Part shown: piece after piece, positions 983 through 62,975 of the stretch
Layout of the letters: each line of letters starts with the position of its first letter
Numbering within the stretch: position 1 is the first letter of the stretch
Position numbers and translations under genes: made by a program
Assembly (NCBI GenBank): GCA_018389105.1
Contig: JACATO010001040.1
Location: forward strand, 466,357 to 530,356
DNA: 64,000 nt
Source of the DNA: Nautilus pompilius
Taxonomy: Eukaryota; Mollusca; Cephalopoda; Nautilida; Nautilidae
Direction of reading: 5' to 3'
The notes under the pieces: model-generated
Seen by the model: the letters and a program-made list of their open reading frames with translations, nothing else
Databases searched by the model: none
What the model was told of the DNA's origin: nothing

Positions 983-10951
<9,969 letters not shown>

Positions 10952-26984: not shown

Positions 26985-26987
26985 CAT
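26985..26987 (-). CDS. CaM: Alternative distal calmodulin exon 1 (ATG only)
   Basis: The minus strand reads GAAAATCCGCA-ATG|gtgagtga, identical around the boundary to the proximal exon at 10949-10951. Splicing from here to the acceptor at 7394 would give the same 149-residue protein from a 19.6-kb first intron. The neighbouring promoter motifs are also duplicated. It could be a second working promoter, a tissue-specific first exon or a silent duplicate; sequence alone cannot decide. Confidence 0.6.
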
Positions 26988-30098: not shown

Positions 30099-31172
30099 TT
30101 AGGTCATTACAAAAGTTTTGTCGGTTTTAATTATGTTAATTTGGAGTATATTTTTGCATGCTCATTAAGGTATATGTAAATAAGTTATATATCGTTTGTA
30201 GCGTGTGCTTTGGCATACATTATGCAAAATCTACCTTTTTAAAAATCATTAAATGAATATTTGTTTCAGAGTTCTGAGTGAAATGTGTATAGAAAAGATT
30301 ATTATGTGCCATTTTGCTTCACGAGTTCAAACCAGGCTATAAAACGAGCAAGGCAACTCGTAACATTAAGCAAGCATGGGGCAAGGACACAGAAAATGAG
30401 CGCACAGTGCAATGATGGTTTGCAAAGTTTCGATCAGGAGATGTGAGCCTCGAAGATAAGGAACTTGACGTCCTTCCAGCTGTGATGACAACCTTTTGCA
30501 AACCTCAGTTGAAGCCAATCCAAGAAAAACAGAACGAGAAATTGCTGGAGAGCTTGGCGTAAGCACTGCAACTGTTTCCCGATATCTTGACAGAATCAGT
30601 AAGGTGAAACGACTTGACAAGTGGGTGCCTCACAAATTGAATGAACTACAAAAAATCGATTGGTGGACTGCAACTGGTGTCATCTCACAATAACTTCTTG
30701 CAACCTGGCGAAACTACCATAGCTGAAAGATCCTATCGTGAATTAAATGTTCATCAGAATCTCTCCCAACGACAGCCGGCATTGGTAAATAAAGAAGCCC
30801 AATCCTGCTCCAGAACAATGCTCATCCTCGTGTTGCAAAAGTGACTCCTCAGAAAGGGAACACGTTGGGGTAAAAAACTCTCCCTCATCCAGGCTATTCA
30901 CCAAACCTTTCTCTCACATATTACCCCTTTTTAAAACTTCCTCCGTATGAAACCCTTCTCCAACCAAGCAGCAATTGAAACTGCCTTCCAACAGTTTGTC
31001 GACTCCAGAAATCCAGATTTTTTTTCAAAATGGTATAAATGCGCTGGTAACTCGTTGGCAGAAGTGTACTGATTGTAATGGAACTTGCTTTGATTAATAG
31101 ACTGCACGTTTAGCAACGTTATGAAGTCTCATTGTTGCGGTAAAAAATCGCAAAACGTTTGTGACAACCTAA
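30099..31172 (+). mobile_element. Mariner transposon with both terminal repeats, defective
   Basis: The element is bounded by TTAGGTCATTACAAAAG and its imperfect inverse ending CAAACGTTTTG reversed, GTGACAACCTAA. It is flanked by TA on both sides (30097-30098 and 31173-31174), the expected mariner target duplication. At 1,074 bp it is shorter than an intact mariner of about 1.3 kb. Transposase pieces in order are FAKFRSGDVSLEDKE, EANPRKTEREIAGELGVSTA, KVKRLDKWVPHKLNE and RQPALVNKE. The frame is broken several times and part of the catalytic core is lost. It is in inverted orientation to the copy at 20520-21342. Confidence 0.93.
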
Positions 31173-31174
31173 TA

Positions 31175-42924: not shown

Positions 42925-43096
42925 GAGAGAGAGAGAAGAGAAAGATGGAGAGAGATGGAGAAGATGGAGAGAGAGAGAGAGAGAGATGACGTCAGTACAG
43001 AGAGAGAGAGAGAAGAGAGAAGAGAAGATGGAGAGAGAGAGAGAAGAGAGAAGAGAAAGATGGAGAGAGATGGAGAAGAAGAGAGAGAGAGAGAGA
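42925..43096 (+). repeat. GA-rich tract with a single CRE palindrome
   Basis: Purine-rich (GA)n with GATGG interruptions and one GATGACGTCAGTACA core (TGACGTCA at 42987-42994). It is the reverse-strand form of the CT tract at 43697-44250 and so forms an inverted pair with it across about 600 bp. Apparent Arg/Glu-rich reading frames here are artefacts of the repeat. Confidence 0.9.
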
Positions 43097-43695
43097 ATCA
43101 CGAATACGGGAGGGAGGGGAAATATCATTATCTTATAAAAGGGGGTTGGTTAGTTTAGTTGGTCAATTTCTAAAGGGTAAAAACCCGTCAAATGGTTTTT
43201 GTAGTTTTCATTCCTCGATGTCACATAACATTTTTAAAGGGACCCGTGTTTATTAGAGGAGGGATTTATATACTATTTTCACAAATAGTTTAGTCGGTAA
43301 AAATAATGGCTGAAAACAAACTATTTGATTATATGGGCGAGTGGATTATTAGAATTATTTTCGTTTAATTGCGTCGCTTCCCAAATAGCGACTATTAGCT
43401 CAGCTATTTATTGCGCCCGTCCACACGCTGCAGAAAGCGGCACCGTGGTTATTCGTGTTCCAGTTTTGCCCCTCCGCCACCTTCTTAAAGACGGAAAACG
43501 ACTGGTGCAGACTGGCGCTGTCAGAAATCGGCTGAGAATTTCTTTTTTTCTTTAACTCACCCGACTTCAAAAAAAAACACTTTCCACGGAGATCGCGCGG
43601 CTCTCTGCCCGAATGATCTTCCCTATTTTATTTGGTTGAAATTTTCAATTGATTTGTTTGTTTTGTTTATACCTTGGCGTTTCAGTTTAGTACAA

Positions 43696-43696
<1 letters not shown>

Positions 43697-43756
<60 letters not shown>

Positions 43757-43785
43757 CCTTTCTCCCTCTCTCTGTACTGACGTCA

Positions 43786-43817
<32 letters not shown>

Positions 43818-43850
43818 CTTCTCCCTTTCTCCCTCTCTCTGTACTGACGT

Positions 43851-43901
<51 letters not shown>

Positions 43902-44191
43902 CCTCTCTCCCTCCTCTCTACTCTCTCCCTCTCCCTCTCTCCCTCTCTCTGTACTGACGTCATCTTCTCTCTCTCTCTCTCTCCCTCTCTCTGTACTGAC
44001 GTCATCTTTCTCTCTCACTCATCCTCTCTCTCTCTCCTGTACTGACGTCTCTCTCCATCTCCCTCTCTGTACTGACGTCATCTCTCTCTCCATCTCTCTC
44101 TCTCTCTCTGTACTGACGTCATCTTTCTCTCTCTCCATGTCTCTCTCTCTCTGTACTGCCGTCTCTTTCATCTCCCTCTCTGTACTGACGT

Positions 44192-44230
<39 letters not shown>

Positions 44231-44250
44231 CTGACGTCATCTCCCATCTC
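43697..44250 (-). repeat. CRE-palindrome satellite array in a CT tract
   Basis: Runs of CTCTCT are broken by the core TGTACTGACGTCATC. Perfect TGACGTCA occurs at 43778, 43955, 43997, 44073, 44114, 44186 and 44232. Three decayed cores (TGACGTCT twice, TGCCGTCT once) lie between. Spacing is irregular (about 40-180 bp). TGACGTCA is the consensus CREB/ATF site (established knowledge); whether it is bound here is unknown. Ser/Leu-rich or Arg/Glu-rich frames across it are repeat artefacts. Confidence 0.92.
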
Positions 44251-44465
44251 CCCCTCCCGGGAGTATCGAAATCCACGATCCTTTTACAAAAAACGGATTC
44301 TGGGTTCTAGCTCGATTTTTAAAGTGTAAGAACATTAGCTGGAATTTAATCTCCATTAAATTTGACCTCTAAATTCTGTTCAAATAAATATCAAATGTTA
44401 ACTTTTGGTTGGTTCACCAGAAACTCAAATTCTCATTAAGAGATTCACTTTGTGCTATCTGAAAA

Positions 44466-44497
<32 letters not shown>

Positions 44498-45228
44498 CAT
44501 TGGAAGAAAATTGATCTTTAGGATAATTATTTTCTTAAAGTATCATTTTGTGTTTACGGTGGCTTATTCGTTTGTTTGTTTGCTCCTAACACCGAGATCG
44601 CCCGTAAAGAATGTAGATTTTGTTTTAGTAAGAAAAGAATAACGGTTACCTCCCTTGTGCTTAAAAAAAAAAAAAAAAGTCATCGCCATTTGAACTATCG
44701 TCGTGCAAAACAATCGAATGAAGAATATCGAAATTCAGTTCTGTAATTTGAATGGATTAATAATAAAGCGGTAATATATACACTGGTGTTTTTTATTTTT
44801 TACTTCCATTTTACCGCCGGCGTAGATTACGTATTTTCCATCCTTATCGCTTACAATTTCGTTCCGCAGAGACGGAAGACCAACAACGAAAACAAACAGG
44901 AGCTGCTCAGAGTCGGGGGTTCCAGCCTTGACCTTTCTGCCCTCGCCCGGATGGGATCGAGAGACAAGACGTATCCATCGTCGAAAAAAAAAATAAAGGT
45001 TCCTCTAAGAAGGTTCCGCTATGATGGAAGCAGACTGTCTTCTCTTCCTTCTTTTTACAGCGAAGTCGGTTCGTTCCGCGGCCGGTGCCGGCGACGGGTT
45101 TTCGGCGGGGTCGGCCGGTGCAGCCAACCGTGACCTTTGACACTGAATAGAATTTCTGCACGCCATTTGTCGTAGAGCAGTTTCAGAAACGGAGTAACGT
45201 TGAAGGATGCGGGGAAACTTAAAAGTGA

Positions 45229-45270
<42 letters not shown>

Positions 45271-46380
45271 TAATAATAAAAAGAACAGCAAAATTTAATT
45301 TCTGTCGCCTGCGAGCTCCAGTTACTCTCGGTGGCTGCGGAATCCGGCATCGACTCCATCACTCGGAGCTGAGAGTTCTCCCGAAACAGTTTCGTGTGCT
45401 TAACCCGGCTAATGGTTTGGTTTCCTGCTGACAGACTCATCCAGGCCGAGCGATTGCGACCAGCTGGTCTCGAAGTAAAATTTCCTGTAGATGGCGCTGC
45501 TAAATTCTGCCAAAACCGCTGCCGCGGGCGAGAACAGGATGACTGACGTCTGGACCTGATGGGAAAGCAAAAGCTGTGAGGGTCGACGAAACGAAATTAA
45601 ATTTTTTAATCTTTTGCGCAAGTGGAATTTGGCTTTTCTCAAGAGACTGCTGTCTGCAACCATATATATAATGTGGCTTGATTTTACTGTTATATTTTCC
45701 ACATGTAATACTGTACAACATGACCATCTGATTGTGTGTCTCTGTGTGTGTGTCACAAATGCAACTTCATATTTACTCCTGACTACCGGCGTAAACTTTG
45801 AAAGCAAATAAAATAAATATTCATTCTATTATTAAAACTCTTGGTTAAACACCAAATTTAATAAAAGTCAGTAATTGAGTATTAATTAAAAAAAAAACAA
45901 AACACTGAAGATGTTTATGTTCAAACGACAGTTATGCCAAAAGACCTCCCCATCTTCTGCCTCGAAAGTATAGGTAGGCATCCATTAGTTAACTTTTCCT
46001 GTGTTCCAAAGTATACGGAGATGTCGCCATAACTGTGTTGTATTATGTGGGAATCGTTTGTCTCATTTTTCTATCAGTTTCGTCTCCCAGAAGCTGAAGA
46101 GTTAATATCTCTAAGGTTTGTGCAGACCAAACCTTGTTGAGAACCACTCTCTAGATTTTCGCCTCCCACTTCGTCCTTATAATTTAAATGGCTGTTTGAT
46201 CTTCTTGATTAAACCTCCCAGCCCTTACTGAATGTGTTTGATGCCTGGAGGAATTACACGTTGTTAGAATATTGCAGTCCTTCACTGTCTTTTACTGAGG
46301 CGGTAACACGTCCATACCGCCCTTTTCCTATACTCAGTATTCTTGCTTTCTCGCAGATTCCACACTGAAGCTTTTCTCTT
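44251..46380. other. Stretch without a supported gene
   Basis: Contains a poly-T tract at about 44468-44498 and an (ATA)n microsatellite at 45231-45282. A minus-strand ATG frame at about 45290-45440 begins MSLSAGNQTISRVKHTKLFR and looks protein-like. It runs into the microsatellite with no good donor, so I do not call it a gene. Confidence 0.5.
45231..45282 (+). repeat. (ATA)n microsatellite
   Basis: About 16 ATA/TAA units with one interruption. Confidence 0.93.
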
Positions 46381-46383
46381 TTT

Positions 46384-46678
46384 ATTTGCATCCCTGTGGT
46401 GTTCGTTTTGTTGTTGCAGGTCCAAACCTTTCAGCGTTATGAACAACACTGTCTTTGTCCAGCTGTATCGTAATTTTGCCTGCTGCTCCGCTTACTCGGA
46501 AATTTGCACTGTTTGCTTTTGGTTCGTGCTTTTTTCCACCACGAATTACTTTCTTGGAAGTGTACAATAAAACGCCTTTCCGGAACTCCAGGATTTCCGC
46601 TACTTCTCTTTTCCGATTCTCAAATTTCAAATAGCATTCGCGACATATTCGCTCTCTTCTGGCCAGACTGACGGTCAA
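46384..46678 (-). pseudogene. Possible Ty3-type LTR retrotransposon integrase C-terminal relic
   Basis: A minus-strand open stretch of about 98 codons reads FRKGVLLYTSKKVIRGGKKH, then EPKANSANFRVSGAAGKITI and QLDKDSVVHNAERFGP. The order resembles the tail of Ty3/gypsy polyproteins (F+.GD.VL.Y..K...RKGGK.EP+W.GPY.I........Q...G....VHN..R.+PY). The GPY motif is not intact. No LTRs, protease or RT were found nearby. This is a motif-level guess only. Confidence 0.35.
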
Positions 46679-46699
46679 GCCCCGCCGTCACAGCTGTAA

Positions 46700-48930
46700 C
46701 TTCTCTGAACTTATAGCAGGCTGCTGCTACTCCTATACGGTCCTAAGATACGTGACTAGTACCTGGCCGGTCGATTTTTTTGTACCAAAGCAGGCGACTC
46801 AACGAGTGACTGCGGCCATTTTGTGACTGTTTTACATGTCTCACGTGACAAATGCGACAGTTTCGATAGAAGTAACGTTTGAATATAAATATATCACGTA
46901 TTGTTATTATTTATTCTTTAAGTGTTCTCGTTGATGTATCATTTCACAGATTTGTTGTTCTAAACAGTTAAAAACTATTTTCTTCTAAAGTTTTGGCAGG
47001 TAGTGCGCGCATATATGTTCACGCCATAGATGTTACGCATGCGCATCTATTCTTCAATGAATATTCAGTAACTACTTGCAGCCATTTTCTTTGTCTGGCA
47101 AGAGCACATCCTGAATCGTTTGGCACGGGATCCTCAGCATTATCGACGGTAATCTGCTCCGGTTTTTCCCGGAGTTTGGAGCTATTCCCACCGTTTGCTA
47201 CTCTGATCTTGACCACCCGGTCTTCGATTGTTCATCAAGATGTTCCAGTAAGTGATCAAAGGCGAGCGATAAAACAACTGCGGTCTATCCAGCGCCTTCT
47301 AGACGTGTGACATGTCGCCGTGTCCCACTGAGAATTTTATAATCAGTTGCCGGCATGACACAGGGTATTCCCAACGGATATGCCACGTATCCAGGAGGAA
47401 TACAGATCTTCATAAACGGAAGGTCTGTTCTACCGCCGACGCCCGTTCAAACCACTGCTCCATATCGCCCACCTTGGCGTTTGTTTATAAAAGCAGTGGG
47501 GTCCAGAAACATGAGGGGGTGGGGGAAACGCCCCGTTCTCCAGACCCGCATCCCCCGTGTTGTAAGGGATCTGTATCAGGCCAGGCGAGGGCCGTCGTTA
47601 TTCGCATCTGTCCCTAGTAGCTTCGGTTAAGCGTTTCAGCCGGTGTAATCCAGTCAGTCGGTGTTCCGACCTAGGGATGTGGTGCTGCTCGCAACTCTGG
47701 CGGCCAAAGCTGGTTCCACTTCTCTCCCTGCAAGTTAATCGGCGCTGCCCCGAAACCTGTTGGGGGTGGAAATAGGGCATGTGGACTGACCGGATTCGGG
47801 TCAACCGCTCACTCGACCCCCTCCCGCTGTTTCGGCTACTACCACCTCTTTCGAGACATCAAACTTTCCGGGTAAAGGCCGTCATGACGGACCGATTGTT
47901 TCCGATGTCACAGACCCCCCCCCCAACCGCCGTGTCCTTTCCCCTGGGGCGGGCGCTTAAAAGAAGAACCGGAGAATGTGACCGATCACCAAGGATGTTA
48001 AAATCGAAAAAAAAATTAACTCGCTCCGGTTTAATTAAATTGTGTAGCGTATAGAATATCCAAACCTACAAAAGGCTGGTTAAATATATTCTGATAGACT
48101 TAAGGAGGAATTGGGTTCTAGTTTAGCTGTAGAATAAAGACAATTACAAAAGCTTTCCGTTTCGGTGTTGATTTAACGAAAATTCAGTTTCATCCTCTGC
48201 GCATGTCCGATGTTACTATGCGAATACCGGATCTGATAATGATTCATGGCGTGTGGAAATGCTAATATTGATTGCTTTTCTCTCCTTTAGCAGGTTAAAC
48301 GGTTTTTATGATCGGGTTGGTGTTATTCATCAAGTATAAGAATAACGTCATTAAAATCTGCAAAGGCCAGAGTACAAGAGCAAACCAGCCACTTACCAAG
48401 ATAAAATGTCATTTATCTGGGCACGAACGGAACGAAAACAGTTCGCCATTTTGGTGTACATAGACTCAGCGTTCGGTAATGGCTGGCGTTTGGAAAAATT
48501 TTCGGAAAGTATTTGCTCAGGTCTTCGTTTGCTGGCGTACTTCTAAAAAAAAAAAAAGAGGGGTTAATTAGGGGTCGACTTTACTTAATTTTAGATTTAC
48601 TGCAACACCTCCGCCTTCCTCATAAAGTAAAACAGAAACAAAAACAAAATCCAAGAGTACAACGATTCATAGTTTTCATAAATGTACCCGCGTGTAAAGT
48701 CTTGGACAGCCGTGGATCTTGTTATTTCTCATATTTCGGCCAGCAGACAAATAACAAAAACGATACGTTTTTTTAACAATTGAAGTTGGCCTTTAAACCT
48801 TCGAGTATTGGTCCTTTACCAGCAGTACTCTATTTCTACAGCCCAGACGTAATATCATTCGTGACGAGAACTGATGTTGCCCGCTCCCATGAAGGATAAC
48901 ATTCTCGGGAAAGATCAACAGAAAAGAGGG
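46700..48930. other. Stretch without a recognised gene
   Basis: CpG-containing DNA with several 90-105-codon open frames (for example at 46993-47310 and 47312-47630 plus) that carry no motif I know. A C9 run lies near 47916. Confidence 0.5.
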
Positions 48931-48932
48931 GG

Positions 48933-48934
<2 letters not shown>

Positions 48935-48982
<48 letters not shown>

Positions 48983-49000
48983 CTCTCTCTCTCTCTCTTC

Positions 49001-49037
<37 letters not shown>

Positions 49038-49085
49038 TCATCTCTCTCTCTCTCTCTCTCCATCATCCTCTCTCCTCTCTCATCA

Positions 49086-49141
<56 letters not shown>

Positions 49142-49203
49142 ATCTCTTCATCTCTCTCTCTCTCTCCATCATCTCTCTCTCTCTCTCTCTATCCATCTCT
49201 CCA

Positions 49204-49236
<33 letters not shown>

Positions 49237-49237
49237 C
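48935..49237 (+). repeat. Long CT microsatellite without CRE cores
   Basis: About 300 bp of (CT)n broken by CATC, CCATC and CTTC steps, with no TGACGTCA. Related in composition to the CRE arrays but lacking the core. Confidence 0.93.
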
Positions 49238-49468
49238 GCCAACCAGCCAGCCGTCGAATTGAGAACCCTTTCGACGTACGCAAGAACACAGTCATTCCTG
49301 TGATCACTGGCATAATTCAGTCAGAAGTGACTTGACACAGTGGCTACGGGGAGACTGATGCGGACATTTAAACTAACTATCATGTGGGCAGCTATGGTCA
49401 GTTTCAGCAAATAATAATAATAACAATATTAATAATAATAATTAATAAGAGAAGATGAAGAAGAAGAA

Positions 49469-49501
<33 letters not shown>

Positions 49502-49502
49502 A
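49469..49502 (+). repeat. (GAT)n microsatellite
   Basis: About ten tandem GAT units following a GAA-rich stretch. Confidence 0.93.
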
Positions 49503-51009
49503 ACTTTAGTAGCGATTTGATTTATCTTACCAGCTACATGAAAAATAAGCGGAAAAAGAATGGCCAATTTAACCTTTAATTTAAAGATGTCATACTATAA
49601 GCTTGGAATTTTTTTTTCTTTCCTTTTCCGCTCGCATTATTCAAACCGTTTGGTGGTGTTGCGCTGTAGCGCACCGGGGAGAATCGATATGGACCCACAA
49701 CTCCAATCCTTCGCCATCCTCGTTCAGCAAACAAAGAAAGTCGAGCCTGGAAGGTCTGGCTGTCAGCGATGGCTGGACGGCGACCGCGATCGATCCCGGC
49801 CCAGGACGATGAGAGACGCCAAAGTAAACAGTTATCTCTGCGAAGGATGGATTGCGACAAATTCGCTCCGGCAGATTGATAACATTCGCGAGTTCCACTA
49901 CTATGGCAGTTCTTCTATTCGCGCTGTTATTGACTTCCAAGGGGGTGGCGGCGGGATGGCTTACTGTTTAGAATACACTGTCTTTCTAATTCTACCGGGA
50001 TCCGCCGCAGGTGTTTGTTTTTTTCCCGACTGCGCTCAGAGATTGGAACCACGCGGCCAGGAGTCCGCACGATTGCGCGATAGGTTGCGCTGCGATCGGC
50101 CGAGCTATCTAAAGCGCGATAACTGAGAATGTGCTACTCGGCATACGGGCTCATCTATTTTGTTTATCGTTCTTATCATTATTACTTTTTAATTTTTAAA
50201 AAAAAATTGTTATTGTTATTATTATTATTATTATTATTAAATAAGACGATTTGAAATTTTTGCTTGGTTAAAGTCCGATTTTACGACGCAAAACGACTAG
50301 CGAAGCCGCCCCGATACCATGGTGTTTGTGTTTTTGAACATAAAAGCTGGGCTGGTGGCCTCGTTGTATGATGAACTAACCCTGAACAACCGATTAGCTT
50401 AATTCGATATATTGTTTTCTTGTTTCCGAAGTTAAATTAATGCGAGGCTCAAATATACGGGGAAACATCTGTGTAATAATATCTCGTAATTATTGGCAAC
50501 AGACAAAAGGGTAAAAGTCGTAATTTTCGATAACCGAAAAAGAAAAAAAAGAGGGAAGGAATTTTTTATGTTGCCATGGATTTTCAAACCGAGTCCTTCT
50601 TCAGTTAAGGGTCAAATTTAACTGCCTTTATATATATATATATCGGTCGATACTGATCAATATTAACGAATTGTATGGGAAACCATCCGCATCGGATCCG
50701 CTTGGCGCGTTTGACTCGCAGCTTTCGTCTAAAAAGAAATAGATCATTGCGAGTTAACAAGCAATTTACTTTTCTGACATGCAAACTACAAACTGACTAA
50801 ATGTGAAGGAGAGATGGCCAATAAAAGAACAACCCTAACCCCTGATTGGCTTGTTCGATAGAGAATTATTCAGCAATTATCGTGTACATTTTACCGTGTG
50901 GATATTTGAGCTACATCGCCTTCCCGCTGATCAAAGTTAGCGCGGCCTAGCGCCATAGATGAAAAAAAAAAATGGCATCAGGTCTATTTAAATAAATGCG
51001 AAATAATAC

Positions 51010-51040
<31 letters not shown>

Positions 51041-51285
51041 TTTTATTTTATTTAATTTCCAACAGTAAAGGAAAAAAAAAACCCATATGCAAATCTTTTT
51101 TAAAATTTAATTAAAAAGTAAAAAGCAAAATTAGATTTTAAAAAATACCAAAAATCTATTTTTGTTTAATTTGTTAAAATTAAATAACTCAGTAACAAGG
51201 TCGCCAACGTGTACAGTGTTGCAAATAATTATGGAGACAGGAAAAACTGTGTATAAAGCGCATATAACACGTGACAGGGTCACAT
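49503..51285. other. Stretch without a supported gene
   Basis: A 188-codon plus-strand frame at 49560-50126 has no recognisable domain and no family resemblance I can name; I treat it as chance. (ATT)n runs lie at 50214-50240 and 51003-51043. Confidence 0.5.
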
Positions 51286-51289
51286 CTCA

Positions 51290-52200
51290 TGCGTTAAAGC
51301 GAAATACTCCATAATGTAGTAAGGTGGTGGTCTAGCACAATCCGACTGGTTTTCCTGCGAGCAATCAGGAAGTGCCACACCGCAGAAGAACTGCATAAGC
51401 ACAGGCAATGATATCGCTGGAGTATCGGAAACGCTGAGGCTCCTGAGAAGGAAGGCAAGTGGACAGAAATCCAAAGACTTAGCTGGCGAGGGCTACGCCA
51501 TGCGGAAGATTGTAGGTTAACTTGAATTGAAGTTTCGGATGCAAGTCTGAAACTCGTCCCGTTGCCAGCAGACGCGGTCAGTAGAGATCTTGCAAATGAC
51601 CTGGCTGCCAGTAAACGTTTGTTCGAGAACAGCAGGATACAGTGCCAGTGTGGAGGGCCCCGGGTAGCTGCCGAGGAGAGGCAGCAGAGATAAAACAGTG
51701 GGATGAGAGCAAACCCGGATGAAGATGCTTCTCTTCGCAGATGAGTTCGTGTTCGAACTGTTTTGGCGATAGTCAGTGGTAGTTTGTTTGAAGACGAACC
51801 GTGGAGGCGGGCGGCGTACAACGGCTATGGTAAAGCGTGACGGTGGATCGATACAGGTGCGTGGCTGCATGATATCGGGTGCTCGCATGGTATACTGACC
51901 ACCGACACGTGCAGGCAGGTTCTCATACACCCGCCACTCCCTCGGGAAGACATAGCATCGGGAGGCGATTCACCTTCTGACGTGACCGTGATCCCACACG
52001 ACCAGCCGATGAGGCGGGGGTGGGGGGGGACATCTGGAACGTAAAGAAGTTGGTGGAACTTCTCACGGGACTATAAGTGGTCACGTGGCTACAGGGGAAG
52101 TCGAAAGGCGACGATGAATTGTGCAAAGCGGTACAGGCTGTTTAGAGCAGCATCTCAGTCAGTGGTGTCGTTGCTTTTCTAAGCACCTACATGTTTGAGT
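51290..52200 (+). pseudogene. Tc1-like transposase relic
   Basis: Motifs occur in family order on the plus strand. LFADEFVFELF corresponds to the first catalytic block (L.SDES+FELF). TTAMVKRDGGSIQVRGCMIS corresponds to VPTVKHGGGSVMVWGC.S. Near the end, DELCKAVQAV with SSISV resembles the C-terminal helix (ELW+AVQ..W..I). Multiple stops and frame changes make it inactive. Terminal repeats were not identified. Confidence 0.72.
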
Positions 52201-54040
52201 AATTACGGGAAAAGCTAACTGGACGGGCATCCGCAACACGGATATCATTCTAAACAATTTTGAAGCTTCTCAAAGAAATAAAAGCCGGGGGGGATCCGGA
52301 ATTTGATTGATATCTAATTTTAGGAGGAGACCAAGGGAAGGTCTAATTCTCTGCATATTCCATCTCCAAGATCATCATCTTAGCAAATGTATCTGCATAA
52401 AGATTGCAGATTTTGCATTCACATGGGGTAAGCACCGACACCCTCAGCGGTCCCTCACAACATTAACCTTACAAGGTCGGCCACCTTACAACTGCACCTA
52501 CATGAAGGATAAGCAGATCTCGCCATCTTCTTGTCTATCGCGATATTTAACCCTTTCGGGAGCGTGTTAAAAACACGCCAATCTCCGACCGAGGCCAGTT
52601 GTGTTTTTTTTTTTTTTTTTTTTTAATTTTGCAGACGAATCCGACTGATACTGAATAAAGGAACAACACGGCAGAGAGTGTAAAAGGGAAGGGTTAGTTT
52701 CCACGTCGCGTCTGCAGAAGCTCTCATAACAGGAGTCGGTCGGAAAAAAAGAAAAAAAACAAAAACAAGAAGTATATATATATTTTTTGGTCAAATTGCG
52801 CCATTTCTCAGATTCGCCATCCCGGTTAATTACTTTCACTATTCCGTTCGTGTCTCACGTAGGAAAGAAGTTTTTTTTTTTTGCGGCAATATTTACTTCT
52901 GTTGTTTTTATTCCTAAATGAATTCCTTCTAGCAAATGAGGTGATCGAAGTTGTCTACCTTGCATCATAAAGTTAGCGTCTAAATATAATATTCAAGACC
53001 GCAGATTCAAAACAGATTTTCTCGTTTGTTTGTTTCCTAATCACTGATATTTAATAGGTTTTTTTATCACTTATATAAAAGTAAACAGCATATCATTTGG
53101 TTGTCGCGATTGCGGAGTCGCATTTCGGTCTCCGATCTGTTTGGTCTTTAAGCCAGTTGGCGTTTAGCTAATTCCAGTTTTTCTGGGCCAGCCTCGTTCT
53201 ATGAGTTTTCCCAGGATTCGTCAGTTTACTTCCGCTACTAAGCAGAAGAGTTCTATCAGGTTCCCTCCAGCACCCACTCGATGATATTCTGCTCGCTTGT
53301 AGAAGCACTTTAGTTCGCACGCTTACAAAGCCCCTGTTCTCTGTCTCTCGTACTGCTAAATTAAGAACATGGTTTATTTCTGATAGTTTCTCCGACAAAA
53401 TCCTGAGCGGAATCCACATAATATGTCTGCAAGGACAACAGAGGTACCGACAAAATCAAACAGCTAAAATAAGAGGATATTTTGGTTGCACCGACTACCG
53501 ATTTCTAACCATATCTTCCTTTGGGGTTTAGGATCATTAAGGTTACATTTTCTGCATATGGACTGATTGTCATATGCTGGAGTTTAAGGTTTAGGTCGTT
53601 AGGCTTTTATGACTGTAGATACAGGAAGAAACTCGATCTCAAATGAAACTGAGGGTTCCGACCGGCAACTCGTGTGAAAACGATACAAAAACGTATGATT
53701 CAGCGAACATCATCGCATGTCAACGTGAAAAGGAATAGACAGCTCTTGCGAATTCAGAAAAGATAACCGGGTAATAGTTAATAGCCTGAAAGACGAAAAA
53801 TGTCTTTATCTGTTTGAAAAAAAAAAAAAAAAACGAAATGAACAAAACTATATACTCGGGTGGCGTCCATTTTCGCTTTTCTAAAAAAAATTTTTTAAAG
53901 AGTTACTGTCATTTTGTCATTTGTCATTTGTCTAAGTCAAATACCTACGCATACAGCCGGATGTTAAAAAAAATAGGAGAATCCCTGTGATGTCACAATG
54001 AGGAGTTAAATCCCTTAAAAGGACGATCACGTGTTCCGAG
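52201..54040. other. Stretch without a supported gene
   Basis: Contains the short inverted repeat GCGTGTT-AAA-AACACGC near 52562-52578 and poly-T / poly-A tracts (52603-52624, 53818-53834). A minus-strand frame at 53168-53419 with a true ATG has no recognisable domain. Confidence 0.5.
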
Positions 54041-54041
54041 A

Positions 54042-54628
54042 GAGAGAGAGAGAACGTCAGTATAGAGAGATATGACGTCAGCACATGGAGAGAGAGATAA
54101 CGTCAGTATAGAGAGATGTGACGTCAGTACTGAAAGTAATAACGTCAGTATAAAGAGATATGACGTCAGTACATGGAGAGAGATAACGTCAGTGTAGAGA
54201 GATATAACGTCAGTATAGAGAGATATGACGTCAGTATAGAGAGATATGACGTCAGTACTGAAAGTAATAACGTCAGTATAAAGAGATATGACGTCAGTAC
54301 ATGGAGAGAGATAACGTCAGTGTAGAGAGATATAACGTCAGTATAGAGAGATATGACGTCAGTATAGAGAGATGTGACGTCAGTACTGAGAGTAATAACG
54401 TCAGTATAAAGAGATATGACGTCAGTACATGGAGAGAGATAACGTCAGTGTAGAGAGATATAACGTCAGTATAGAGAGATATGACGTCAGTATAGAGAGA
54501 TGTGACGTCAGTACTGAGAGAGATAACGTCAGTATAGAGATATGACGTCAGTACATGGAGAGAGAGAGAACGTCAGTATAGAGAGATATGACGTCAGTAC
54601 ATGGAAGAGGAGAGAACGTCATATATCA
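54042..54628 (+). repeat. CRE-palindrome satellite array with 128-bp higher-order period
   Basis: By hand count there are 13 perfect TGACGTCA and about 14 related TAACGTCA/GAACGTCA cores in under 600 bp, set in GAGAGATAT spacers. Basic units are about 20-25 bp. A higher-order unit beginning TGACGTCAGTACTGA recurs at 54119, 54247, 54375 and 54503, exactly 128 bp apart each time. Purine-rich strand is plus here, opposite to the array at 43.7 kb. Confidence 0.95.
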
Positions 54629-55160
54629 GTCTATGAGATCATTATATAGATAACAGAATAATAGAGAGAGAATTTTTGAAAAAAAAAGCGATTCTTCTTC
54701 GAGCTTTTAATTACTGGAAAAGTTGCATATGTGGTACCTAACAAAGAGTTTGCAAACGGAGGAAAAGCTATGCTATAAAGCTTGAAATTAATATTGTGCT
54801 AAAAAAGTTAGAAACTAGCTCAATATTTATTAACCAAAACTAAACCTGACTCTGTGGTGACGTCATGTGTGGGTTCTGTCAGCGGATAACCGGCGGAGTG
54901 GTTTTTTTTTTTGCGCTGCACTAAATTCCCCTAGCTTTCTTCTGCTCCTGGTCAGGTGGCAGTCTGTAGTCTCTTCCGTAAGCTGGCAGTTTCCCCAGCA
55001 TCGTTCGACTCCTTTTCCCGCCTGCTGACTGTTATTTTTTTTCTCGTCACTGGGAAACGTTTTAAAAAAAAAGGTGGGGGGGGCAAATCTGTTTAGGGAG
55101 GGGACCGTATAGGAAGAACCACAAAAATCGCCAAAACAAATGTTCTTTTTCTTTCTCTTA
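54629..55160. other. Downstream flank of the candidate exon
   Basis: Contains an isolated TGACGTCA at 54858-54865. It would be intronic if the candidate exon at 55162-55355 is real. No next exon was recognised. Confidence 0.4.
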
Positions 55161-55161
55161 C

Positions 55162-55355
55162 AAGTCGGATTTCTCCTTCCGCGATCGGCTGAACCCTGGT
55201 CTTGAGAGGGTCTTCTCATACGACTCCAGTCGCTGATGGATTGATTTACAACATTGCAACATATCCGAGTAGTTGATTGGCGGCGTCCTACACACGATCC
55301 TGCCACTATTTAGCGCGGAGAGTATTACTGCGAAATGCTCTCGAAGTCCGCTCAT
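55162..55355 (-). CDS. Candidate 5' coding exon of an unidentified gene
   Basis: A minus-strand ATG (55353-55355) with G at -3 opens a frame of 64 codons plus 2 nt. It ends at a strong donor, CGACTT|gtaagag (exon end 55162). The peptide begins MSGLREHFAVILSALNSGRI, continues VCRTPPINYSDMLQCCKSIH and QRLESYEKTLSRP, and ends basic (RSRKEKSD). It is helix-prone and hydrophilic, with no signal peptide. Two ATTGG (inverted CCAAT) elements on the minus strand at about 55403-55407 and 55429-55433 lie just upstream, within CpG-rich DNA. That is the layout of a promoter-proximal first coding exon. I do not recognise the family. The next exon was not found; it would lie at lower coordinates. Confidence 0.4.
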
Positions 55356-55500
55356 TGCTGGCGATCCAAGCAAAGGTATTAATTGCTCGTTTACGTAAGC
55401 GGCCAATCAGCGCGGCGTCAGAAGCCTGCCAATAAGCTAAGACGTTACCGGATCTTCGGGAGGGAGGAGGGGCTGTATCAAAGCGCTCGACGGAGCGCAA
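55356..55500 (-). promoter_or_regulatory. CpG-rich putative promoter of the candidate exon
   Basis: GC- and CpG-rich sequence with two minus-strand ATTGG motifs (in CTGATTGGCCGC and CTTATTGGCAGG), typical NF-Y sites of TATA-less promoters. No TATA box was seen. Confidence 0.35.
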
Positions 55501-56440
55501 CTGCAGTAGCTGTGCCCTTTAAAGAAAATAGGAGATTGCCGGCGGTGAACAAAAAGACAATATTGCTTACAAGGGGCTCTCTTAAAGCCTGTGTGCCAGA
55601 AACAGGATGCACTGCAGAAAAAAAAACCCACAAATATCCAGGAAATGGCGAGCAGTCCACCCCACCGGTCTCCTTCGAGGGTCTGATTGTGAGACAACCC
55701 CCCGGCCAGGCCAGCTTCCGGTCCTGCACTTCATAAGGTTGCGCCGTGAATTCTCACCGAGATAACTTACTGATATCCGGTTGAGAACAATGTAATAAAT
55801 ACCTGATGAGCAAAAGAGATGTCGGAGAAGATCTGATGGATGCAAAGACCAACTACGGATTGATTAAAAGAAACCATTCGGTGGCGTTTCTCATAGCTTG
55901 GAATTATTAATGCGCGGAGGCGTACAGGCTGGGTCCAGTCCTCTTAAGTTTAGAAAGAGGGCAACGAAAGGTGGGGGAGGAAAACTAAAAAGGGGCCTTA
56001 CAATATGTCGGAGATATTGCGACATTTGAAATTGAAATCCAGAAAGGAATTTTCCAGCGAGATCCATTTTCACTGCACATCTGTTGCATCTCCTTACGTC
56101 CTTGCATCGAGGAGATGGGGACGTCTCAGCGACGTGATCTACAGGGGGGGGGACGCTGTTAGATACCAGCCTTGCTGACTGGGAAATTTACCTGGGTACG
56201 GTTTGCGGCTTCTGACCGGTTGGAGGGTGCAAGCCATTTTACATGTACCCGGCAGACCCTACCAGAATCTTTCCGTTTATCAGGTTCGGGAGGAAACTCG
56301 CGCGGCCGGTTGGTGAAGAGGGTCGAGAGCAAAGCTTTATGTGGATGACCTGAAGTTAAAGTAAAAACGGTGAAGAATCAAGAGGAAGCCGTCTTATCTG
56401 TGTCTCCAACAGGAGTTGTTTCTGGCAGAGACTGATGTAG
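55501..56440. other. Stretch without a recognised gene
   Basis: Several overlapping short frames without motifs. Nothing supported. Confidence 0.5.
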
Positions 56441-56444
56441 AGGA

Positions 56445-56558
56445 ATCTCTCTCTCTCGTCTCTCTCTCTCTCACTCTCTCTCTCTCTGCTCTCGCTCTCT
56501 CTCCTCTCTCTCCTCTCTCTCCTCCTCTCCATTCATCTCTCTCTCTCATCGCTCTCTC

Positions 56559-56601
<43 letters not shown>

Positions 56602-56614
56602 CTCATCTCTCTCT

Positions 56615-56654
<40 letters not shown>
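56445..56654 (+). repeat. CT microsatellite without CRE cores
   Basis: About 210 bp of (CT)n broken by CATC, CTCC and CTCG steps. No TGACGTCA. Confidence 0.92.
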
Positions 56655-56656
<2 letters not shown>

Positions 56657-57151
56657 GCATCTTAGGGAAATTGTTCGACTGTTTCCAGTGACCCAAGCCC
56701 CGAGGTTTGGCAGTAGAAGGTTAACTACGCTCGGCAAACACAGAGCTTTGTCTCCATCTCCTGCTTCCGCGGTGATGCCAGGAATTCTCTCCGAACGCAC
56801 TGCTGGCCTTTCTTTCCTCGATCAATTAAGACATCGATCTGGAGATAAAGAAACGGGGGAGCATGGGACGCGCTGGCATGGCCAATTAAAAAACAAAAAA
56901 AGGAGAAGCGTTGTCGACATGCAGTCTTCTGTTTTGCCTACAAGTTTAGTCTGGGACCGCAGGGTGTCAAGGTGGGAGCGGTGTTCCGGGAGATGAAGGG
57001 GCTACGGACCAGTAGGGAAGATTACGCACTTGGTTTTCTTTTCGCCCCATTTTGGGGCTGACTGAATGATGAGACTAAAAATGCGAGAAAACCGGGGGAA
57101 CAACTGTACGAAAGCACTGCGTTTACTAGACTCATCAATATAATAATAAAT

Positions 57152-57213
<62 letters not shown>

Positions 57214-58745
57214 GCAACATTCATACATACAGGCGTGCCCAACTATTCACGATGTTCTCCCCCATCCTGAGGCTGCTTTTGGATTAACTGTTGGCCACCA
57301 TGAAGAACACTGCTTGCTCTGTCAGCCATTTTCAGCTCGCTGCTTGTTTCATAAATAAGCAGCCAAACGAAGTGCGCGCGTAGACTTCAGCATCTTCCAA
57401 TGGAACCCTGACCCATCACACCCCTTCAGGGGTCTCCACGTGTATGGATGCTAATGCATGAATGCATAAGTGTGTGAGATACTGTAGATAATTTGACGCG
57501 GAGAAAAAAGATAATTGTGAAACAGTAAAAACTGGAGAGGACCTGACGAGGTCCCTAAGGCGGAACTTCTCGCGTCCGTATGAGAAGGGGAAAAAAGGAG
57601 AAAAAAAATTACCAAATCAGCTCGCGAACGACGTGCAGGCGCAGAAAAGCTGCAGATGGCGGGCAGGCGCAGCTTGAAGCAAGAAGAAGAAGAAGAAGAA
57701 GAAGATAAAACGCCCAGAGCAGGAAAGCGTCAACCGATGTGATGGGTATTTCGTGTTTCCGCGAGATGAATTAGGCTCGCCATTTGTTGCCATGACTACC
57801 AGCGAGCGACTGACTCGACCGAGACATTTCGAGACGGAATATACGGGAGCATGATTCTTTCTCTTAAAAATTAAAAAAAAAAAAAATATTCTTATCCGAA
57901 CGACTGCAATTAGTTTTGAGACCGCAGCCTCTTTTAACGTCCGGTGTTTGTTTGTTTTTTTTCGTTTCGTTATTTCCCGCCTCAGGTGCTTTTTGAGACG
58001 ACCCCCCTCCTCCCTACTCCTCCGGCTCAAGCGCGGAAATGCTGTTCAGAAGAAACAGCTTTAGGCGGGAAGGCTGAGCCGGTACAAAGGAGAGAACCCA
58101 GGAATGGGAGCGGGGGGGGGGGCGTTACCTCGTAGTAATCAACAGAACCTATTCTGGGATGGCGGACAGAAACGCGCCCGGCATCCGCAGAAACCAGACA
58201 GCTTCGTAGTGGCGCTGTTAATGAGCTCATCTCTGCGATCGTACGCTCCGCCAGGCGCGCGTCGACGGCGACCGGAACCGTTGGACACGTGTAACTCTGG
58301 CGCCAGTTGGAGCGCGGACGGGATCCATTAACCCGGCGGATAACTTTAGCGACCTCCCAAATACTTACGCAGTTACACACATCTGTCTCGGATGCGTGCC
58401 GCAACTGGTCTGACGCTGACTGGAAACGGAGCTGCTCCGCCCGAACTTTGGCGTTATTCAGCAAGAACGGAATCTGGAGAAGCGATTATTACGCGAATTC
58501 AGAACGCATTTCAGTCCTCCCACTTCTTAAAATCTGTTAGGGATGCGGGATACGAGTTGCCTTTACCTTTGAAACGGCGTTACGAAGAATCGGTCGCCTA
58601 AATAATCTTTGTCCGAAATCTTCAAAGAAATATCCTTTTTTTTTTGTTGTTTTTCATCCGCAATTAAAATTTTGTTGCAGTCAGATTTATAAATATCAAA
58701 ACTGTTTTTCTCTTGTTAAAGATGTTTATTCGAATGGCGCTTAAT
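56655..58745. other. Stretch without a supported gene
   Basis: Holds an (AAT)n microsatellite at about 57135-57213 and a (GAA)n run at 57677-57704. CpG-rich DNA at 58.0-58.6 kb has overlapping open frames on both strands, none with a recognisable domain. Confidence 0.5.
57135..57213 (+). repeat. (AAT)n microsatellite
   Basis: About 79 bp of AAT/ATA units, the longest trinucleotide repeat in the window. Confidence 0.93.
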
Positions 58746-58747
58746 GG

Positions 58748-59462
58748 AGATATACAAAGAGATATATATGACGTCACGTCATTATAAAGAGAGGTGTGAT
58801 GCCATTATAAAGACAGATATGACGTCATTAATAAGAGAAGTATGCCGCCAGTACAGCGAGAGATATGACGTCATTACAAAGAGATATATATGACGTCACG
58901 TCATTATAAAGAGAGGTGTGATGTCATTATAAAGACAGATATGACGTCATTAATAAGAGAAGTATGCCGCCAGTACAGCGAGAGATATGACGTCATTACA
59001 AAGAGAGATATGACGTCGTTACAAAGAGAGGTGTGATGTCATTATAAAGACGGATATGACGTCATTAATAAGAGAAGTATGTCGCCAGTACAGTGAGAGA
59101 TATGACGTCAGTATAGCGAGAGATATGACGTCATTACAAAGAGAAATATGGCGTCAATACATCGAGAGATATGACGTCATTACAAAGAGAGATATGACGT
59201 CATTATAAAGAGAGGTGTGATGTCATTATAAAGACAGATATGACGTCATTACAAAGAGAGATATGACGTCAGTACAAAGAGAGATATGACGTCAATACAT
59301 CGAGAGATATGACGTCATTATAAAGAGAGGTGTGATGTCATTATAAAGACAGATATGACGTCATTAATAAGAGAAGTATGCCGCCAGTACAGCGAGAGAT
59401 ATTATGTCATTACAAAGAGAGATATGACGTCAGTACAGCGAGAGATATGACGTCAGGAGAGA
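58748..59462 (+). repeat. CRE-palindrome satellite array, largest
   Basis: By hand count 18 perfect TGACGTCA between 58769 and 59455, plus decayed cores (TGATGTCA, TGATGCCA, TGACGTCG, TGCCGCCA, GGCGTCA). Units are of the form GAGAGATATGACGTCATTAC. A block of about 122 bp is repeated near the start (cores at 58769 and 58891; 58820 and 58942), after which the order becomes irregular. Two cores are fused as TGACGTCACGTCA. Confidence 0.95.
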
Positions 59463-60485
59463 GGGAGAGACTTTTAAAAAGGTGTATCACAGATACATAA
59501 AAAATTCGTGCATTTCCGGACAGGAGCGCGGGTGAAAACTGAGATAGGAGCGAAGTCACCATGCCGTCGACCCTAATTATAAATCACAATTAGCACCAGA
59601 AGCAGCAGCAGCAGCAGTGGTGGTGGTGCTAGGTTTGTCATTATTACGTCACAGATCCCATCCGGAAAAGATACGGATGAATAATCAACACGGCCTATAA
59701 ATATAACGCTGCTAAAGTGGATTCCAGTAAACCGTGAGTTGGAAAAAGCAGAGAGCGGTGAAATAACAGCTGATCCAAGGACCCGACGGTGGTGAACCAA
59801 CCGTTTTAGGCAGCTCGACCTGGGTTTAAGTTCCTTGGTTTGTTTCCATCGAAACTCTGCGAAGTTTCTAGGGCTAGAGAGAGGAAGAACACACAAAAAT
59901 GAAATGATAAAGATATTCTAAAATGTAGGAAATTTAAACAAAATTGGTGTTCAAACGGTGGGAGGGTTAGCACAGATTGCATGGCGAATTTGTAACGAGG
60001 CAGATAAAAGTTTTCGAGGCACCAAAAAAAGAAAGAAAGGGAACGATGTTTTTAGTGGACGATGGAACAGCTAAAAGATGAAACGCGTCTAATTTTAAGA
60101 CGAATCTCGGCTACATGGAAAACGATACAGTAGCGACACCACAGAACACCCTGAAGGGAGGCCACCGCTACATTCCTGTGCTAACTATAGCTCTAGGCAC
60201 GCAAACTCTATGAGTTTGTAGAGCAAAAATCGTAGCGTCGCATCGCCCGGGGTGACTGACGTGGAAGACAGAACTCCGCTCACCCGACAGACTGCAGCAA
60301 CTGCCAATGTGTTTCAACTGCAAATACCAGAAGAAAACAAATCCTTGCTGTTTGGTTATGTGAGTCTCAGCACAGCATAAAAACACAAAAACAAACAATC
60401 AAGCCAAACTGCTTTATTATGCGTCAAATGTGTGAATTCCTCCCCTCGCTGTACGGAGGTCATCTTTCTCTGTGTACTGACATCG
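59463..60485. other. Stretch without a recognised gene
   Basis: A short AGC-rich run lies at about 59598-59616. No supported exon. Confidence 0.5.
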
Positions 60486-60528
<43 letters not shown>

Positions 60529-60658
60529 ATCTCTTTTTCTTTCCATCTCTCGCTCTCTCTCTCTCTCTCTCCTCTCTCTCCTCTTCTCTCTCCTCTCTCT
60601 CTCTCTCTCTCTCCATCTCGTCTCATCTCTCTCTCTCATCGCTCCATCTCTCTCTCTC

Positions 60659-60689
<31 letters not shown>

Positions 60690-60727
60690 TCCCTCTCTCT
60701 CCATCTCTCTCTCTCTCCATCTCTCTG
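60459..60727 (-). repeat. CT tract with one decayed CRE core
   Basis: (CT)n with CATC and CTTTTTC interruptions. Its left edge has TGTGTACTGACATCGTCGC, a damaged form of the TGTACTGACGTCATC core, linking this plain CT tract to the CRE family. Confidence 0.88.
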
Positions 60728-61235
60728 TTGGCAGGAATTGATAATAAAATCTCCAATTCATTTGCTCTTTTATCGCTGAAAAAGAATTCAATACTCTGTG
60801 TATGTCGCTTGGCTCAATCGTGCTATCTGTTCACGACTTGTTGACGAAGCAAACTCTTATTTAATGAAATTACCTTGTTAACGTCGCCATAAATAAAATC
60901 ATTATTTATATTATTAATAGCCGATCATAAACACATGTAAGCTTTTGTTTTATTAAGGTTTCCGAACAGTTTGCCCATGCTACGCATTAATGAGTTTCTC
61001 TCTCTCACACACACACACACACGAGTCTTGTGCCAGCTAATGTGAACGCCACAGCTTTTCCCCACATTTTTCAGTCTACAGCTTCTTTTTTAGCCCGTAT
61101 GCACAAAGAATGTCAGAGTCTCGGAGATCTGTAGCGAAGGCTGCGGAGAACAGTTTAGACGCTGAGGCAGGCTCGATATCACCGAAAGGAAAACAGGAAT
61201 CTAAACAAAAGAGAAAGTTCTCAGCAAAAGACGAC
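60728..61235. other. Stretch before the last Tc1 relic
   Basis: Contains a (CA)n run at about 61005-61022. The part from about 61.09 kb may be N-terminal transposon sequence but shows no clear motif. Confidence 0.45.
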
Positions 61236-61239
61236 GCAC

Positions 61240-61870
61240 TACTACTTCAACAACAGAAGACTGGAGTTTCGGGACGCCAATGACAAGAAAGAATTGGGCG
61301 ATGATGGGATTCACGTGAATTCGTCGACTGTACGGCGAAGACTTCTGGAAGGTGGACGAAAAGCCAGAACGCTCTTAGAGAAGGGACTGCTGGGATAAAA
61401 GACACGTCATAGACGGAGGAAGGTTGGGAAAGGATGCAGCTTTAAGACGAATGTGCAAAGTCAAAGAAGCCGGTATGTTCGTTGGGCCAGCTGGGGAACA
61501 GCCAGGGGAAGATATTTTAAATGGATTTCTCTTGCCATTGGACAGGCTCGCCCGGTTCCAGTGGAAGGCACGATAAACAGCGAGAAGTACAGTGACATCC
61601 CAGAAAGGATAGTAGTTTCCAGAAAGATCTTGCACCTTTCCACGTATCAGGATCTGTTGAGCAGTTGCTGAGATAAAACGTGATGGGAAAGTTTAGACTG
61701 GCTTCAAAAATCCCTTGATCTCAATCCAGTAGAGAATCTGTGGACAGTTGAGAGTCTGCAAATCGAGGCTGAGAAAATTGGATTGTATTACAAAGGAGAA
61801 AATAGTCGAAACTCTGAAATTAAAAATCCATGATAGAACGTATTTTCGAGCATACTAAGCCAAGGTTGAA
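61240..61870 (+). pseudogene. Tc1-like transposase relic
   Basis: The plus strand carries DGIHVNSSTVRRRLLEGGRK with ARTLLEKGLL, matching the Tc1 helix-turn-helix junction (G.VHVS..TVRRRL.E.GLKAR...KPLL). Further on come VEGTINSEKYSDIPERIVV (G.MNSEKY.DIL...L) and LDLNPVENLWTVESLQIE (PDLNPVENLW). The catalytic middle is partly lost and the frame is broken. It is a different copy, probably a different lineage, from the relics at 41.1 and 51.3 kb. Confidence 0.8.
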
Positions 61871-62640
61871 CATATTTCGTAATAAACCTTTTACGACTGT
61901 AGAAATAATTTGTTTGGTATTCACATCCTAGAAAGATAATAATATTAACAGTATGTTCTGCACGCTTAGGAAAACAGATGGTTTAATAAATATTTGATGA
62001 TTACTGCTCATCAGCACTTCGTGCAATATTTCGACTTTTAAAAGTTTACTGAGTAGAATACTGTTATATATGCGTAAATTTCTCTTGGTTCATTAACGTT
62101 TGTTAATGAGTTTTGGACTTTTGATAAGATCACGTACTGCCATATTTGCATAAAATATGTGTGAGTCAGAACTTCATGGAGGCCAGTCTATGATATTTAA
62201 GGGTTTCTTTCGTCGCATGACAAGATCTGTTCCCTTATGTTGTCGATTACAGAGCGGATTGTTGTCGGGTGTATACTAACGTTGGTAATTTGCATCTTTT
62301 TTTCGGCATATGATTAAATATTTCTTTAGAACGTTTTATATTATTATTATTATTATATAAACTTCTTCATGCTATTACATCGTTAACTTCTATCCACCGC
62401 TGAATCATTGATGATCGCCCGCAATTCGCAATTTTGTTTTTTGAAGTTTTCATTAAAATTCTGTTTCATGTAAGAAAAGAAGAGACAACGCGATTTAGTT
62501 AAATCACTATATTTTAAATATTCATAGTGAAGTGTATTATAGCAAAGAGAACCTCAAGGCGAACAATGACAGCTTCTGCTTACTGTCCACTTCGTCGAAG
62601 ATTAGCGAAACAGCTGGTGCTTGAAATCAAATTTGCCTAT
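61871..62640. other. AT-rich stretch, no gene recognised
   Basis: AT-rich with an (ATT)n run at about 62338-62356. Confidence 0.55.
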
Positions 62641-62650
62641 GAATATGCAT

Positions 62651-62941
62651 TCTCTCTCTCTCTCTCTCTCTGTACTGACGCCATCTCTCTTTGTATTGAC
62701 GTCATATCTCTATGACGTCATATCTCTCTGTATTGATGTCATATCTCTCTCTGTAGTGACGTCATCTCTCTTTGACGTCATATCTCTCTCCCTGTAGTGA
62801 CGTCATCTCTCTTTGATGTCATCTATCTTTGACGTCATATCACTCTCTCTGTACTGACGCCATCTCTCTTTGTATTGACGTCATATCTCTTTGACGTCAT
62901 ATCTCTCTCTGTATTGATGTCATATCTCTCTCTGTATTGAC

Positions 62942-62975
<34 letters not shown>
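62651..62975 (-). repeat. CRE-palindrome satellite array in CT orientation
   Basis: Nine perfect TGACGTCA by hand count (first 62697, last 62938). TGATGTCA and TGACGCCA variants lie between them, in spacers such as CATATCTCTCTCTGTAT. A block of roughly 180 bp beginning CTGTACTGACGCCATCTC occurs twice (about 62670 and 62850). It ends in a plain CT run. Confidence 0.94.

Follow-up and report, generated by a model that had tools for sequence, protein, structure and literature searches.

The window, the whole 64,000-bp stretch of DNA analysed here, contains 50 exact copies of the CRE octamer TGACGTCA, where 100 dinucleotide shuffles gave a mean of 0.63 and a maximum of 3. Forty-eight of these copies fall into five arrays, with 1 at 42.9-43.1 kb, 7 at 43.69-44.26 kb, 13 at 54.03-54.64 kb, 18 at 58.74-59.47 kb and 9 at 62.65-62.98 kb, a recount identical to that of the initial annotation, and the other two are singletons at 40,968 and 54,858.

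Array 1 (42925..43097, plus strand) is a GA tract with a single exact core at 42987-42999. Array 2 (43696..44239, minus strand) is a TC tract, with GA on the minus strand, holding 10 cores, of which seven include a perfect CRE and all ten are followed by GTACA. Array 3 (54039..54621, plus strand) comprises 26 units, mostly of 21 bp, within a 128-bp higher-order repeat; 13 carry the perfect CRE, 11 carry TAACGTCA and 2 carry GAACGTCA. Array 4 (58753..59471, plus strand) has about 30 units, mostly of 23 bp, with the perfect CRE in 18 and TGATGTCA, TGCCGCCA and other variants in the remainder, and TTA follows the octamer in 18 of 30 units. Array 5 (62651..62974, minus strand) consists of 14 units spaced at 16-25 bp, nine with a perfect CRE. 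A sixth, degenerate array (60446..60726, minus strand) contains two decayed cores (60450 and 60473) adjoining a TC tract, and two further TC/GA tracts (48935..49237 and 56446..56654, both on the minus strand) lack the core. By core-matched counting, 48 of the 83 units in the window have a perfect CRE. As first reported, the arrays occur in both orientations, with GA on the plus strand at 42.9, 54 and 58.8 kb and on the minus strand at 43.7-44.3, 60.5 and 62.7 kb, the degenerate array included.

TRF returned periods of 21, 23 and 62 bp and the higher-order period of 128 bp, which corresponds to a head-to-tail minisatellite (unit 9-100 bp). No gene was recognised by eye among the open frames listed for 30-64 kb, Pfam searches of 20 open frames near the arrays gave only matches far under the curated cut-offs, and Rfam (gathering thresholds) and a tRNA scan gave no match in the window.

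Repeat unit and spacing

The repeat unit is an asymmetric 13-nt core, TGACGTCAGTACA, set within (GA)n and wider than the octamer alone; a 9-nt form, TGACGTCAG, also occurs, and each locus holds one to about thirty cores inside a GA/TC microsatellite. The wider core in GA/CT tracts described initially is thus upheld as a GA-embedded core, but its form is the asymmetric 13-mer, and TGTACTGACGTCATC is exact in only some of the window arrays. The description as a microsatellite with the CRE as its unit is similarly imprecise: the palindrome does recur in the repeat, but the structure is really a compound of dinucleotide microsatellite and 13-nt spacer.

We compared 34 arrays, a non-random sample comprising 23 on one contig, found through the exact core, 6 in the window and 5 in arbitrary stretches. 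Core orientation was fixed relative to the GA strand: with arrays turned by the core, GAGAGA exceeded TCTCTC in 34 of 34, and all 141 exact 12-mers in the sampled arrays shared one orientation. Successive perfect CREs in the 13-30 bp class were separated by an odd number of base pairs in 112 of 126 cases, following a 13+2k pattern; the modal spacing was odd in 19 of 22 arrays, and spacings of 17-25 bp were the most frequent. Odd values are expected where a spacer of 13 or 9 nt is followed by an integral number of GA/TA dinucleotides. CRE spacing is therefore set by dinucleotide slippage and not by helical phasing, which was rejected at 10.5 bp with a coherence of 0.07 over 195 spacings.

Genomic extent, flanks and dispersal

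Across the 728-Mb genome, exact TGACGTCAGTAC occurs 30,964 times, compared with 250 for its reversed control. The genome-wide count of TGACGTCA in any context, proposed in the initial annotation, gave 93,914 against 19,528 for the reversed control, a 4.8-fold ratio that is only rough because the control word contains no CpG. The exact core recurs at many unlinked loci, arrays are present in 3 of 17 arbitrary genome stretches, and extrapolation from one contig gives about 7,000 arrays genome-wide. These copies establish the dispersed family that had been suggested. A unit consensus lacking the palindrome elsewhere, which would have pointed to chance fixation of the motif here, is not what the genome holds, because the genome-wide consensus also carries the palindrome; the 30,964 exact extended cores and the arrays in arbitrary stretches rule out fixation by chance at this locus alone.

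Array spans range from 96 to 1,176 bp (34 arrays, a few of which reach the end of the stretch examined), and the homogeneous many-kb blocks of a long-array, centromeric-type satellite were not seen. On the contig with 23 arrays, scoring by eye gave 9 minus and 14 plus arrays in 8 runs (hand-worked runs test, approximately p 0.04, one-sided).

For 308 units in 29 arrays, the nearest other unit lay in the same array for 52%, compared with 4% expected, so likeness within arrays exceeds likeness between arrays, as in a minisatellite. Array ends were plain GA in 30 of 34 cases on the left and 31 of 34 on the right (word-based ends), and were inspected for target-site duplications by eye only, the GA ends blurring the borders. 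No common flanking element, and hence no shared body or termini of the kind expected from a transposable element, was found in 60 of the 68 flanks (those longer than 40 bp, 8 being dropped), apart from three matches of 15-18 bp between arrays.

These flanks bear directly on the idea that a mobile element (a Helitron, a SINE or a non-LTR retrotransposon with a GA-rich tail), its body short or eroded, seeded each locus. Thousands of one-orientation loci lacking common flanks would also be expected from a very short insert, and the available text of a study of Lepidoptera describes microsatellite families associated with RTE retrotransposons, from which their shared sequence derives (PMC2887409). 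Against such seeding stand the absence of common sequence in the flanks compared, the plain GA at most array ends and the finding, in an arbitrary sample, that outside GA arrays the core appears only as two-mismatch words. We consider a mobile origin unlikely.

Local homogenisation of units, GA linkage, fixed orientation, unshared flanks and 13+2k spacing are all evident in these data. We favour, as the probable explanation, a genome-wide dispersed compound minisatellite that has spread as GA tracts copied the core from one another and has grown through slippage and unequal exchange, with the CRE as a passenger. Dinucleotide slippage, together with unequal exchange, would lengthen the arrays. 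A new locus would arise when one GA tract passes its core to another, the GA sequence common to both permitting template switching or ectopic conversion. The CRE palindrome would belong to the spacer and would not cause the spread. GA tracts are available as acceptors, since 12 of 24 GA domains of at least 30 bp (17 stretches plus the window, by a method that missed window arrays 4 and 5) had no core-like word. The copying between GA tracts is a step that we infer, because neither an empty site nor a donor-recipient pair was found.

Octamer conservation and candidate functions

The test for constraint on the octamer was based on the sampled arrays. GA-anchored substitutions numbered 103 in the 8 CRE positions and 58 in the following 4 (GTAC), with p 0.50. 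When the two CpG positions were excluded, 63 substitutions in 6 CRE positions stood against 58 in 4, a weak deficit (p 0.078) that is compatible with mild constraint; the most frequent single change was C>T at CpG. The core was exact in 93 of 204 GA-anchored 12-mers, which requires either recent spread or some constraint. All six sampled stretches with arrays were CpG-normal.

The initial annotation had read the arrays as an enhancer cluster or transcription-factor sink, and selection for CREB/ATF-occupied enhancer clusters (with GA-binding factors) or for a genome-wide sink would account for several of these features. Perfect octamers are clustered, as in a functional CRE cluster, they exceed the reversed control (roughly) across the genome, the exact core lies at many unlinked loci, the CpG-normal context is one where a CRE can remain unmethylated, and non-CpG substitutions are weakly depleted. 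However, conservation of the octamer does not significantly exceed that of the adjoining positions, whether or not the CpG is counted, the perfect site is absent from 13 of 26 array 3 units and 12 of 30 array 4 units, spacing obeys slippage parity instead of helical turns, and limited looks recognised no gene near the window arrays. We consider such selection improbable. Under the passenger minisatellite, CREB/ATF proteins could still bind the sites as a side effect, since most of the sampled arrays are found in DNA of normal CpG content, which is presumably unmethylated.

Repair of meiotic breaks tends to erase the cut allele instead of copying it, which weighs against another proposal: that the repeat might have multiplied and dispersed through the repair of meiotic breaks, provoked where Atf1/Pcr1-type bZIP proteins bind ATGACGT(CA) and open the chromatin. 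Breaks within repeats would account for expansion, and A precedes 214 of 265 CREs in 34 arrays, giving ATGACGT, the M26 heptamer bound by such proteins in fission yeast (PMC9775316). That A is also supplied by (GA)n or (TA)n alone, however, and the available text of this review establishes the mechanism for fission yeast and notes that not every CRE is a hotspot (PMC9775316). We regard this route as very improbable.

A broader possibility, which we hold to be doubtful, is that a GA microsatellite has turned into a self-propagating platform on which bZIP proteins land: its consensus CREs, numbering in the tens of thousands across presumably unmethylated DNA, might be abundant enough to rival promoters for CREB/ATF, or might act as bZIP-opened recombination hotspots driving the spread of the repeat itself. 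If the sites are bound, the genome holds several times more consensus CREs than reversed control words, and repeat buffering versus rewiring of transcription factors becomes directly testable. If they are passive, a fixed short core in thousands of GA microsatellites, with no visible mobile carrier, offers a tractable system for minisatellite dispersal.

Relation to known systems

The extended core, in four spellings, had no match in the literature searched, and each of two extended patterns gave 0 loci in viral contigs. A triple-CRE scan of viral (26) and prokaryote (at least 119) contig stretches found at least two GAGA or TCTC words close to the sites in 6 of the 145 stretches listed, and the 12-mer anywhere in 2 of the 145.

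GGAA microsatellites, which serve EWS-FLI1 as enhancers, likewise offer many transcription-factor sites; in that case the repeat unit doubles as the binding site and occupancy is demonstrated, whereas in the present arrays the candidate site separates one GA tract from the next. The HRAS1 VNTR also carries a transcription-factor site (rel/NF-kappaB, with reporter data) within a minisatellite unit, but it is a single locus with a different, longer unit. The MSL recognition elements of Drosophila, GA-rich, X-enriched and with demonstrated binding, resemble the present arrays as a dispersed GA repeat with a fixed core, but have no CRE core. In the available text on Lepidoptera, microsatellite families similarly comprise many loci per genome that have non-random sequence in common along with the repeat; what those loci share is TE-derived flank (PMC2887409), whereas the present arrays have in common a 13-nt core within the tract and nothing in the flanks compared. 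The M26/CRE hotspots of fission yeast, as described in the available text, have the same motif, ATGACGT / TGACGTCA, in single sites with genetically shown function, whereas here it forms tandem arrays (PMC9775316).

CRE arrays in the window and across the genome

The CRE palindrome octamer, TGACGTCA, has 50 exact matches in the window, against 0.63 from shuffles, and tops all 8-bp palindromes there by frequency. The initial annotation had placed about 48 such sites in five arrays (42.99, 43.8-44.2, 54.1-54.6, 58.8-59.5 and 62.7-62.9 kb), and its per-array numbers proved exact, with 48 of the 50 sites falling in these arrays. On the GA strand, the unit reads (GA)n, an optional TA, TGACGTCAGTACA and (GA)n; it is asymmetric because of the 5-mer after the octamer, and each array keeps a single orientation. 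A core-based criterion yielded 83 core-like units in the window, 48 of them with a perfect CRE. The array at 54 kb consists of 21-bp units within a 128-bp higher-order repeat, and that at 58.8 kb of 23-bp units. A sixth, degenerate array lies at 60.45 kb, and GA tracts without the core are present at 48.9 and 56.4 kb.

The window also carries an inverted pair of transposase remnants with broken frames (20513-21329, minus strand; 30371-31179, plus strand), presumably mariner-like, whose matched arms are 86-99% alike. A duplicated segment forms two G-rich copies approximately 16 kb apart (10285-11516 and 26309-27607), which are 92-100% alike where matched and contain 123-bp tandem repeats.

The assembly comprises 727,640,739 bp in 2,558 contigs, one of which, 530,356 bp long, ends with the window. 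The proposal that the clustered CRE sites form a family dispersed beyond this locus was borne out: the extended 12-mer, an exact core word, occurs 30,964 times genome-wide (reversed control, 250), and arrays are present in three of 17 arbitrary stretches (159,602 bp in total). The corresponding octamer counts were 93,914 for TGACGTCA and 19,528 for its reversed control ACTGCAGT, a rough comparison because the control is without CpG. Within the 17 stretches, TGACGTCA occurs 34 times (29 in GA context) and the next CpG palindrome seven times, and family words top the commonest complex 12-mers. On C1, another contig of the same genome, 100 sites among the matches listed gave 23 arrays, reaching to about 11 kb before the contig end. 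Scaling the genome-wide 12-mer count by this site-to-array ratio from the matches listed extrapolates to approximately 7,000 arrays.

Repeats of TGACGTCA were also seen in Bacteroidota contigs, with an exact 21-bp period in L088, L049, L107 and L058 and a 21-22 bp period in L041 (Hymenobacter). The units shown differ from one another and are without a GA tract; in L088, L049 and L041, stops interrupt every one of the six frames of the 180-bp stretch inspected. The Bacteroidota 21-bp repeats had no match in the literature searched.

Growth and spread of the arrays

We collected 34 arrays: six from the window, 23 from C1 (20 plus three further loci, picked by exact core) and five from the arbitrary stretches L157, L159 and L166. 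When turned by the core, all 34 carry GA, not TC, on that strand, and all 141 exact 12-mers share one orientation to the GA strand. Successive perfect CREs 13-30 bp apart are separated by an odd distance in 112 of 126 cases, as expected if a 13-nt or 9-nt spacer is combined with whole dinucleotides; 10.5-bp phasing was not detected (coherence 0.07; 195 spacings up to 60 bp). Among 308 distinct units, taken from the 29 arrays that have three or more, 52% find their nearest other unit within the same array (4% expected), and identical 32-mers are common to as many as four arrays. Together, these two features point to local amplification superimposed on recent common descent.

The flanks of different arrays have no sequence in common beyond three 15-18 bp matches (60 of 68 flanks, those >40 bp), and no empty site of an array was found. 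In the 17 stretches, the core is confined to GA arrays, with only six two-mismatch words elsewhere. The core was probably copied from GA tract to GA tract. Outside any GA tract, L156 (7966-8400) holds a minisatellite of 11 copies of a 37-bp unit that includes ATATGACGTAGTACG, similar to the core ATATGACGTCAGTACA minus CA.

Constraint on the octamer and CpG context

The arrays had been read as a possible CREB/ATF enhancer cluster or transcription-factor sink. A core-based count over the 83 window units makes the octamer appear better conserved than its flanks; it was set aside because the criterion selects on the octamer. We instead anchored units by GA context, which gave 204 instances (112 distinct per array) in 29 arrays once words with >6 differences were left out. 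The eight CRE positions held 103 substitutions and the four that follow held 58 (p 0.50); minus CpG, the figures were 63 in six positions and 58 in four (p 0.078). Array-level events numbered 73 versus 39 (p 0.76), or 47 versus 39 minus CpG (p 0.32). The most frequent single change was C to T at CpG (21 distinct units). These counts provide no evidence of octamer selection, and they do not argue strongly against selection of a weak kind.

In the window, the CpG observed/expected ratio changes sharply: it is 0.42 up to 26 kb, or 0.25 once a CpG-rich patch (10-12.5 kb) is excluded, and 0.97 beyond. We compared 25 stretches, of which 17 were arbitrary and eight were blocks of the window. Ratios in the six that hold arrays run from 0.98 to 1.04, and TGACGTCA is absent from all 11 whose ratio is 0.86 or less. 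On C1, the outer 400 bp of 20 array loci gave a pooled ratio of 0.80 (range 0.06-1.38; <0.5 in three), and CpG ratio correlates modestly with array density (20 two-kb samples; Spearman 0.48, p 0.03); the association is weaker there than among the 25 stretches. CpG depletion would suggest methylation state, and the shift at about 26 kb (1-26000 versus 26001-64000; L191) resembles a methylated/unmethylated domain border.

Relation to known repeats

Four spellings of the extended core had no match in the literature searched, and matches to TGACGTCA with 'satellite DNA' were unrelated, judged by title and abstract opening; as far as this literature shows, the CRE repeat family is undescribed. Points of comparison are the M26 hotspot, microsatellite families of Lepidoptera, GGAA microsatellites, the HRAS1 VNTR and MSL elements. 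The CRE content of the family is striking, but a passenger role is the likelier reading for the palindrome and a functional role the less probable one. The arrays constitute a real genome-wide repeat family whose general kind is already known.
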